Assembly (NCBI GenBank): GCA_900317945.1
Contig: ONIT01000003.1
Coordinates: 1 to 63,837, forward strand
DNA from: an uncultured Pseudomonadota bacterium
GTDB lineage: Bacteria; Pseudomonadota; Gammaproteobacteria; Enterobacterales; Succinivibrionaceae
Length of the DNA stretch: 63,837 bases
Reading direction: 5' to 3'
Both the position numbers and the translations under genes were made by a program. Every line of letters begins with the position of its first letter. The stretch's first letter is position 1. This document shows, piece by piece, positions 47,130 to 52,698 of this stretch. A model generated the notes under the pieces. It searched no databases and was not told the DNA's origin. It worked only from the letters and a program-made list of their open reading frames with translations.

Positions 47130-49052
47130 TCAGATTTCTTCCAGGCTGCGTGAATTCATAAGATCGCATACCTTGGCTGCGAAGTCTTCAATCTTCATCT
47201 TGCCGAGGTCTGCGCCCCTTCTGGTTCTCACAGCCACCTCACCGGACTCCATCTCCTTGTCGCCGCAGACGACGAGGAAAGGAACCCTCAGCAAAGTGTG
47301 TTCGCGGATTTTAAAGCCTATTTTCTCATTTCTCAAGTCACTTTTAACTCTTATGCCATGAGAACGGAGAACAGACACTACTTTATTGACATAATCGATC
47401 TGATGATCGGTGATGTTCATGACCTCAACCTGGACAGGAGCGAGCCATACCGGGAAGTAGCCGGCGAAGTTCTCGGTCAGGATGCCGATGAAGCGCTCAA
47501 GAGAGCCGAGCACTGCGCGGTGAATCATGACAGGAACCTTCTTGCTGCCGTCCTCGGCGATATAGGAGGCATCGAGGCGTCCGGGCAGAGCGAAGTCGAG
47601 CTGAACGGTGCCGCACTGCCACGCGCGTCCGAGTGAGTCGTAGAGGGTGAACTCAATCTTCGGGCCGTAGAATGCGCCCTCGCCCGGCTGAAGCTCGTAG
47701 GAGAGTCCGTTTTCCTTGAGTGCGTCTGCCAGATCCTTCTCTGCCCTGTCCCACATGGCATCGTCGCCGATGCGCTTCTCAGGCCTCAGGGAGAGCTTGA
47801 TGTCAACGCGGTTGAATCCGAAGGTCTTGTAGATATCGAAGACCATCTTGATGCAGCCGGAGACCTCGCTCATGATCTGATCTTCCCTTACGAAAAGATG
47901 CGCGTCATCCTGAGTGAAGCCGCGGACTCTCATCAGTCCGTGAAGCGATCCGGACGGCTCATTCCTAAGGCAGTTGCCGAACTCAGCCATGCGGATCGGG
48001 AGATCGCGGTAGCTGCGGAGCTTCTGGTTGAAAATCTGAATGTGGCCCGGGCAGTTCATCGGCTTGATGGCGTACTCGCGGTTCTCGGACTTGGTGGTGA
48101 ACATGTTGTCATGGTACTTTGCCCAGTGTCCGGACTTCTCCCAGAGGACCCTGTCCATGATCTGCGGGGTATGAACCTCGATATAGCCGTACTGCTGAAG
48201 CTTGGTGCGGACGAAGTCCTGCAGGCCGCGGTAGATGGTCCAGCCGTCATTGTGCCAGAATACCATTCCCGGAGCCTCTTCCTGGATGTGGAAGAGATCA
48301 AGCTGCTTTCCGAGCTTTCTGTGGTCGCGCTTTGCGGCCTCGGCGAGCATGTTGAGGTACTCGTCAAGCTGCTTCTTGTCAGGCCATGCGGTTCCGTAGA
48401 TGCGCTGGAGCATCTTGTTCTTGGAATTGCCGCGCCAGTACGCGCCGGAGGTCTTGGTAAGCTTGAAATGCTTGCAGAACCTCATGTTGGGCACATGAGG
48501 GCCGCGGCACATGTCGATGTACTCGAGGTGGTGATAAAGGCCGGGATGATCATCCTTGCTGATGTTCTCCTCAAGGATCTTCATCTTGTAAGGCTCGTTT
48601 CTTGCCTTGAAGACATCGTAGGCCTGCTGCCAGGTAACCTTCTCCTTTACGACGTCGTACTCCTTGGCAGCGAGCTCATGCATGCGCTCCTCAAGCTTCT
48701 GCAGCTCCTCGTCCGAGAGGGCGTGATCGATGTCGACATCGTAGTAGAAGCCGTTGTCGATAACCGGGCCGATTGCCATCTTGGCCTCAGGATAAAGCTC
48801 CTTGAGGGCATGGCCGAGCAGGTGCGCGCAGGAGTGGCGGATAATCTCAACGCCTTCCTTGTCCTTTGAAGTGATGATGGATAGGGTTGCGTCGCTCTCG
48901 ATCGGATCGCAGGCATCGCACAGCTTTCCGTTGACCTTTCCTGCAATGCAGGCCTTTGCGAGACCAGGGCCGATATCCCTGGCAACATCCATAACAGTTA
49001 CGACATGATCGTAATTACGCTGACTTCCGTCAGGAAGAGTAATAACCGGCAT
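47130..49052 (-). CDS. thrS: Threonyl-tRNA synthetase
   Basis: 640 residues (E. coli 642). N-terminal TGS domain ([28 protein letters not shown]), editing domain with [16 protein letters not shown], class II catalytic core ([10 protein letters not shown] zinc site, [34 protein letters not shown]) and anticodon-binding domain. The ATG at 49052 has AAGGA six bases upstream; the longer frame is rejected. The leader carries an anticodon-mimic hairpin, suggesting autorepression. infC starts 17 bases behind its stop. Confidence 0.97.
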
Positions 49053-49239
49053 TTTAAATCCTTTAACAGTGGCGGCACATACCAAATGCCGCGTGCATTA
49101 AATCTGCGCTTCCGCGCACCGCTTCCTTTTTCAGGGAAGGGAGCTTTGTCTGTCGATGACAAATCAACGGCATCTGCCGCGTGCTTGGGAAACGGCGAAA
49201 CTAACCGCAGTCTCCTCCGGCGCTCCGGCGCTGATTATA
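49053..49239 (-). promoter_or_regulatory. thrS: thrS promoter and operator leader with tRNA-Thr anticodon mimic
   Basis: On the minus strand a TATAAT (49234-49239) predicts a leader of about 175 bases. Close to the ribosome site GCGGCA pairs with TGCCGC (49087-49092 with 49072-49077). With a U-G closing pair the loop is seven bases, UUGGUAU, which places U at position 33 and GGU at 34-36, a threonine anticodon. The triplet is at about -31 to -29 from AUG. E. coli thrS is repressed by its own product through an anticodon-like loop at about -32. A second stem TTTGTC/GACAAA with a 7-base loop lies at 49145-49163. Confidence 0.65.
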
Positions 49240-49297: not shown

Positions 49298-50692
49298 CTA
49301 CCTTGAATGATACCTGCGGATGAGCTGCACTGAGAGCTGGCGGGCCCTTCCCGTGCTGCCCGCACTCAGTTCAGACTCAGCCTGGCGCTTCAGAGCGGAG
49401 CTCTCGGGCCGCCCGGTGCTAGCGAGTGACGCCCACGCATAGGCCGCCGCGGCATCTCGCTCGGTGCCGGTTCCCTGGAGGTAGTACTCGGCAAGGTTGT
49501 GCTGGCAGACTGCGTTACCCTCCTCGGCGCAGCGTCTCATTAGCGCGAACGCCTGACGCTCATCCCTGGCTGTTCCCCTGCCCGTGGCATACATGAGAGA
49601 GAGATTGTTGACTGCCTTGGCGTAACCCTTGCCAGCGGCTCGTTTATACAGCGTAAGCGCCTGAGGCAGCCTTGCGCCGCCCTCCTTCTCATAAATGCCG
49701 GCAAGAACGTACTGCGCCGGCACATAGCCGAGGCTTGCGGACTTCTCGAGATACTTCTCCGCAGACTTCCTGTCCCTGCACGCCCCGCTCTCTCCCCTGT
49801 GGCAGGCAAGCCCCAGGTAGAACAGCGCTACAGGGTTTCCGTCAGAGGCAGCCTCCCTGAAGAGCTCAACGCTCTTTTTCCTGTCGGTAATGACGCCTGA
49901 GCCGCTGTAGTACATTACGGCAAGATCAACGATGGCCGGCACATAGCCCTCATCCGAGGCAGTCTTCAGCCACTTTACCGCCTGCCCGAAATCCAGTGAC
50001 ACCCCGTCTCCCTTTATATAGAGGAGAGCAAGGTTGTAGGCCGCCTTGGCGCTGCCCGCCTCAGCGGCCTTGTAGAACCAGTAGTAGGCATTGCCGAAAT
50101 CCTGCTTCACGCCGTTGCCGTTCTTGTACCTGGCTCCCAGGACGTTCGCTGCCTCGGCGCTCCCGCGGTAGGCGGCCTTGGCGTAAAGCTTCATTGCCTC
50201 TGCGGCGCCTAGCCCGCTCTGCTCGGCAAGCCTTGCGAGGTTGAACGCGGCAGGCGCCGAGCCGGCAGCGTCGGCCTTCCTCCACCACATCTCGGCGATC
50301 TGCCTGTTCCTCGCGGTGCCGGTGCCGTTGAAGTACATGTTGCCGAGCCCGAACATCCCGGCAGGCGATCCCTTTGCGGCTGCCTTCCGGAACAGATCAA
50401 GCGCCTTTGCCGGATTCTTCGGAATGCCGGTGCCGTTCTCGTACATCACTGCGGCATTCACCATGCCGTCAGCCGAGCCTTTTGCCGCGGCCTGCTCGTA
50501 GAGCTCAAGCGCCCTGGAATAATCCCTCTCGGCCGGCTTTCCGACAGAGTAGCGGTCTGCCTGGATTAAAAGACTCTCTGCACCGACTGCAGGAGCCGCA
50601 GCCCCGGCCTCATATGATCCGCCAAAAGACGCGCAGCCTGATGCCACGCATCCGAGCAGCAGAATTGAAAAAGCTTCAGTAATTTTTTTCAT
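49298..50692 (-). CDS. Sel1-repeat lipoprotein
   Basis: A 464-residue exported protein built of about ten or eleven Sel1-like (SLR/TPR-related) repeats of about 36 residues, with the AA-x-G-x-A-x-A-x(3)-L-x-x-(M/L)-Y-x-x-G-x-G pattern (for example MVNAAVMYENGTGIPKNPAK). The N-terminus MKKITEAFSILLLGCVASGC has a lipobox, with acylation at Cys15 or more likely Cys20. Such proteins scaffold envelope complexes or host interactions; the partner is unknown. The ribosome site is weak because the NSS-gene terminator stands directly before the ATG. Confidence 0.85.
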   Translation of the reverse strand: MKKITEAFSILLLGCVASGCASFGGSYEAGAAAPAVGAESLLIQADRYSVGKPAERDYSRALELYEQAAAKGSADGMVNAAVMYENGTGIPKNPAKALDLFRKAAAKGSPAGMFGLGNMYFNGTGTARNRQIAEMWWRKADAAGSAPAAFNLARLAEQSGLGAAEAMKLYAKAAYRGSAEAANVLGARYKNGNGVKQDFGNAYYWFYKAAEAGSAKAAYNLALLYIKGDGVSLDFGQAVKWLKTASDEGYVPAIVDLAVMYYSGSGVITDRKKSVELFREAASDGNPVALFYLGLACHRGESGACRDRKSAEKYLEKSASLGYVPAQYVLAGIYEKEGGARLPQALTLYKRAAGKGYAKAVNNLSLMYATGRGTARDERQAFALMRRCAEEGNAVCQHNLAEYYLQGTGTERDAAAAYAWASLASTGRPESSALKRQAESELSAGSTGRARQLSVQLIRRYHSR

Positions 50693-52310: not shown

Positions 52311-52698
52311 TGGTGGATGTGGCGGGATTCGAACCCGCGTCCAAAAAACCTACGCCTTCGGCACTACATGTTTAGTCGATTCTTAATCTCGTCTCACACC
52401 CGCGAACCGACACGCAGTTATGAAACCAGTCTGGTTAGGATTTAACGTTTCCCCTTCAGACGGAGGTTCCGCGCGATTCTGTGGGATCCGCTTCCCATTG
52501 CCCCAAGCCACAGACAGAATGAGACGGGAAGGTTGCCTGCAGGTTTTTAAGCTGCTGCAACGGCTGGGCAGGTTTTTAAGCTGCTACAGCGTAAGTTTCG
52601 TCGTTTGCGACTATTTTTTTGCTGCTTTTTAAAGAGTTTACAGCCACTCTACATGCTCCTAGGGTTTCGTGCTTCCTGTCGAATCCAAGATCACACCC
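52311..52698 (-). ncRNA. ssrA: Transfer-messenger RNA (tmRNA)
   Basis: Rescues stalled ribosomes by trans-translation. The 3' end on the minus strand ends in ACCA with a T-arm GGGTTCGAATCCC; the 5' end GGGTGTG pairs with CACATCC to form the acceptor stem and is followed by the conserved TTGGATTCGACAGG. Length about 388 bases. The tag frame (52579-52608, stop 52576-52578) encodes ANDETYAVAA, resume codon GCA; E. coli is ANDENYALAA. An 18-base stretch containing the tag end (52568-52585) is repeated at 52539-52556. Pseudoknot regions are present but were not folded. Confidence 0.95.

Follow-up and report, generated by a model that had tools for sequence, protein, structure and literature searches.

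The leader of thrS in the window (the whole 63,837-nucleotide stretch of DNA analysed here) contains a hairpin that we read, with a probability of roughly 0.92, as domain 2 of an E. coli-type thrS translational operator, through whose loop threonyl-tRNA synthetase (ThrRS) would repress its own translation. The hairpin, GCGGCAU-UUGGUAU-GUGCCGC, occupies 49092-49072 on the minus strand, where six Watson-Crick pairs and a closing U-G pair display a seven-base loop at 49085-49079 (-33 to -27 relative to the AUG). The loop has U at position 33, the triplet GGU (49083-49081, minus strand) in place of the anticodon and A at position 37. The original prediction had described this same stem, loop and assignment of bases, and had placed the loop about 30 bases before the AUG; all of this proved right. 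The stem is followed on the same strand by the flank CACUG (49067-49071) and by the Shine-Dalgarno (SD) sequence AAGGA (49059-49063), six bases before the AUG, which corresponds to operator domain 1. An SD match of at least four bases lies at this normal place, 3' of the hairpin, in all 87 classical thrS leaders.

The gene behind this leader (47133-49052, minus strand) encodes a ThrRS of 640 amino acids that scored 786 bits against the NCBIfam equivalog TIGR00418 (cut-off 384). The ATG at 49052-49050 was taken as its start because it opens the conserved N-terminus MPVITLPDG and has the AAGGA six bases to its 5' side. Among solved chains, E. coli ThrRS 1qf6 is the closest, and the 1kog chain also matches. 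A placement of the genome in the Succinivibrionaceae is most likely: L066 and L089, loci of named genomes of this family, encode ThrRS identical or almost identical to enzymes from other genomes of the window's family. Residues N575, E600 and R609 of the anticodon-binding domain, which we take to be contact residues, are unchanged in the window enzyme. The gene infC adjoins thrS. The gene upstream of thrS (49298-50692, minus strand) encodes a repeat protein whose only NCBIfam matches, to the repeat-protein models MerG, MotX, AlgK and ExoR, score far below the respective cut-offs; it is probably a Sel1/TPR-like lipoprotein. A tmRNA gene with the tag peptide ANDETYAVAA is also present in the window (52311-52698, minus strand).

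In E. coli, ThrRS binds two anticodon-like hairpins of the thrS operator, domains 2 and 4, and so represses its own mRNA (PMC11088916, PMC9976931), while the ribosome site is bipartite, made up of the SD part (domain 1) and a linker (domain 3) (PMC3858243). The window shares with that operator (structure 1KOG) the seven-base anticodon-like loop, the closing U-G pair, the CACUG flank, an SD just 3' of domain 2, a position at about -30 and a location upstream of thrS-infC. The Escherichia leader that was compared (L068) reads GUGAUCU-UUCGUGU-GGGUCAC-CACUG where the window reads GCGGCAU-UUGGUAU-GUGCCGC-CACUG, and the agreement in stem length, closing pair, loop length, flank and distance identifies the window hairpin as an orthologous domain 2. 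The two differ in the triplet (GGU in the window, CGU in E. coli), in position 37 (A against G) and in the stem, where the changes are compensatory and preserve pairing at homologous positions. They also differ outside domain 2: the linker, unstructured and U-rich in E. coli, has predicted structure in the window, and the window has only a candidate for domain 4, which is one of the two arms of the E. coli operator. Our search of the open literature found no comparative survey of thrS operators, although one may exist beyond it.

Conservation of the element was assessed in a gap-free alignment of 60 distinct gammaproteobacterial thrS leaders. Across these, 98.3% of cells were paired compared to 77% in shuffles and at most 56% in slid controls, and compensatory double changes were found in all seven domain 2 pairs. 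The CACUG flank was invariant in 60 of 60, although the conservation of both CACUG and the loop GU in this set is partly due to selection, since both helped to locate the sites. The loop was also assessed in surveys that did not use it to locate the site. When the best hairpin with a seven-nucleotide loop was picked from the last 65 nt of 130 distinct leaders, blind to loop sequence, G35 was present in 111 of 122 and U36 in 114 of 122. Among named genera, where leaders were located by stem and flank only, NGU occupied the loop in 71 of 71 (CGU 38, GGU 27, UGU 3, AGU 3), and the loop began 30-39 nt before the AUG. Base 34 is free and G35-U36 is fixed in thrS operator loops, a pattern that is consistent with the synthetase reading G35 and U36. 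The original prediction had proposed covariation across relatives as a check and had held that a loop triplet not conserved among them would count against it. Because G35-U36, the stem and CACUG are all conserved, with strong covariation, that objection falls away, and the core of the prediction, a tRNA-Thr anticodon-loop mimic that follows the same logic as the operator of E. coli, is well supported.

Under the mechanism that we propose, the hairpin, placed shortly before the SD, would mimic the anticodon loop of tRNA-Thr, with an NGU triplet that would be read at G35 and U36. By analogy with E. coli, ThrRS in excess over tRNA-Thr would bind the loop with its anticodon-binding domain and deny the 30S subunit access to the SD and AUG; tRNA-Thr would compete for the enzyme, and ThrRS would thereby repress its own translation. 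The analysis establishes a conserved hairpin beside the SD that is homologous to the one in the E. coli leader, and a conserved ThrRS; from E. coli we infer ThrRS binding and competition with the ribosome in the window leader. Alternatively, the hairpin might be a general feature of thrS leaders by which ribosome loading or mRNA stability is adjusted, its NGU loop being kept for another RNA-binding partner. With 8 nt between the stem and the SD, initiation could indeed be affected by any hairpin at this place, but the loop fixes exactly the two bases read by ThrRS while leaving base 34 free, and the corresponding hairpin of E. coli has been proven to be bound by ThrRS (PMC11088916, PMC9976931), so that we regard this explanation as unlikely.

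Even less probable is a derived operator that arose independently to mimic the GGU isoacceptor. The GGU triplet, against CGU in E. coli, and the different stem sequence could be read in this way, and it was on these features that the original prediction had based its term ‘divergent operator’. The differences are real, but they are not signs of divergence: GGU occurs in 27 of the 71 named-genus leaders and is the form in most of those sampled from Vibrio, Photobacterium, Aeromonas, Idiomarina and Rheinheimera, base 34 is free, and the helix changes are compensatory at homologous positions. An independent origin is further disfavoured by the homologous alignment and by a CACUG flank, stem length, loop length and distance to the AUG that are as in E. 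coli-type leaders. Judged by its sequence, the operator in the window is the ordinary gammaproteobacterial form.

The element was also recovered by searches that did not draw on its own family. A covariance model built without Succinivibrionaceae, from 56 sequences of other families, matched the window hairpin (E 5.5e-8) and, with a cut-off of E <= 1, no other site in the 2.9 Mb genome; it likewise matched the thrS leaders of a congener and three g5 genomes. In 3000 shuffles that preserved dinucleotides, the last 60 nt never contained a.U.GU.. loop (U33, G35-U36) closed by seven or more pairs. The modest margin by which the whole leader folds better than shuffles (z -1.4) could be cited in favour of a hairpin produced by chance in a leader rich in GC. 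That explanation is refuted by the covariation in 60 leaders, and these two results speak against it as well, leaving it a negligible probability.

Predictions for the remainder of the leader are less uniform. The domain 2 stem has a probability of 0.91-0.93 when -60 to +30 is folded locally, and of 0.35 in the whole predicted leader, where a longer-range fold competes; in the congener, which lacks long-range competition, the value in the whole leader is 0.95-0.98. The sequence GCACGCGGCA is present twice in the window leader on the minus strand (at about 49185-49175 and 49095-49086), and the upstream copy could rival the 5' strand of the domain 2 stem as the pairing partner of its 3' strand, and thus compete with the mimic hairpin. 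A candidate for domain 4, a second anticodon-like arm with the triplet UGU (GUUGA-UUUGUCA-UCGAC), lies at 49152-49168 on the minus strand (-116 to -100). Such an arm is expected by chance in its region in 0.7% of cases, its predicted pair probability is only about 0.05-0.15, and an overlapping competitor, UUUGUC-AUCGACA-GACAAA, is predicted to be stronger. In the one congener compared the candidate arm is identical and both overlapping hairpins are kept, and arms with NGU loops occur at about -100, approximately the same place, in several other families. Two hairpins are predicted in the linker (domain 3), within 49151-49110, and a short A/U-rich stretch, AGAUUUAAU, adjoins domain 2. A TATAAT at 49234-49239 (minus strand), which also precedes thrS in the congener and in further members of the family, is a likely -10 box and would thus give a leader of roughly 175 nt, though a full sigma-70 consensus pair was not found. 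No Rfam family matched in the thrS leader, either at gathering thresholds or at E <= 10.

Within the Succinivibrionaceae, the thrS leaders take three forms. The first is the classical form with CACUG, found in genera g1 (that of the window) and g5. The second (g6, g7, g9 and g11) retains a UUGGUNN loop without CACUG and has GAGGUU as its SD. In the third (g2, g4, g8, g10, g12 and g13), GGAG or GAGG is followed by ACC or GCC and, after a linker, by a hairpin whose stem has five pairs; this hairpin keeps its NGU loop but has often lost U33, and 3' of it a GG precedes the AUG by 7-11 nt. Leaders of this third type stand upstream of thrS at L023, L026-L030, L033, L034, L037-L040, L042, L045, L047, L049, L050, L057, L126 and most of L154-L183. 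Recognisable operator hairpins were absent from the thrS leaders of four family members, L007 (g5), L044 (g3), L048 (g14) and L180 (g8), which appear to be losses.

In the third form, all 32 leaders have an SD match of at least four bases immediately 5' of the hairpin, and only 10 of them have one in the usual position. The loop GU was required for locating these 32, and an earlier loop-blind scan had found GU in most leaders of this form in its set. The genomes sampled from the clade otherwise have normal SDs, at 58-70% of long open reading frames compared to 12-22% in a control stretch. The form belongs to a single ThrRS clade (100/100 support), which includes one genome without a recognisable element, and a model of it matched in only four of the 148 genomes of the order that were searched, all of them Succinivibrionaceae. 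A second hairpin at about -90 upstream of thrS, with conserved GAGU, GGGU or CGU loops, was seen in L049, L126, L171, L030, L039, L042 and L047; this hairpin of the clade is likely the domain 4 arm.

Sequence comparison makes it plausible that an outer ACC/GGU helix covers the old place of the SD in the third form, with covariation lending it weak support. The core C-G pairs never vary among these leaders, the cognate duplex energy stands out only weakly from shuffled duplexes (289/5000), and the next pair is weak by permutation (1869/10000) even though U-A, C-G and A-U all occur there; for these reasons the helix is inferred and not proven. We give about even odds that folding brings the distal SD to 6-11 nt from the AUG, making a split ribosome site controlled by ThrRS. 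If the distal SD is brought near the AUG in this manner, the repressor's own hairpin would therefore be needed for initiation. In T4 genes 38 and 25, an RNA hairpin between the SD and AUG shortens their spacing to form split ribosome sites (PMC3014915). The third form is like these in having a hairpin between the SD and AUG and would be like them in bridging by folding if the outer helix forms; the T4 hairpin, however, is not described as a repressor site, whereas the third form would be under ThrRS control. The window operator differs from the T4 sites in that its SD is normal and 3' of the hairpin.

These results confirm that the operator by which an anticodon mimic is offered to ThrRS extends far outside E. 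coli, and they give its domain 2, which no Rfam family matches, a definition supported by covariance. The rebuilt leader of the sister clade is a more interesting lead than the window operator itself, and the comparison across the Succinivibrionaceae provides a natural series from the classical operator to a relocated SD, in which the evolution of a translational operator is testable.
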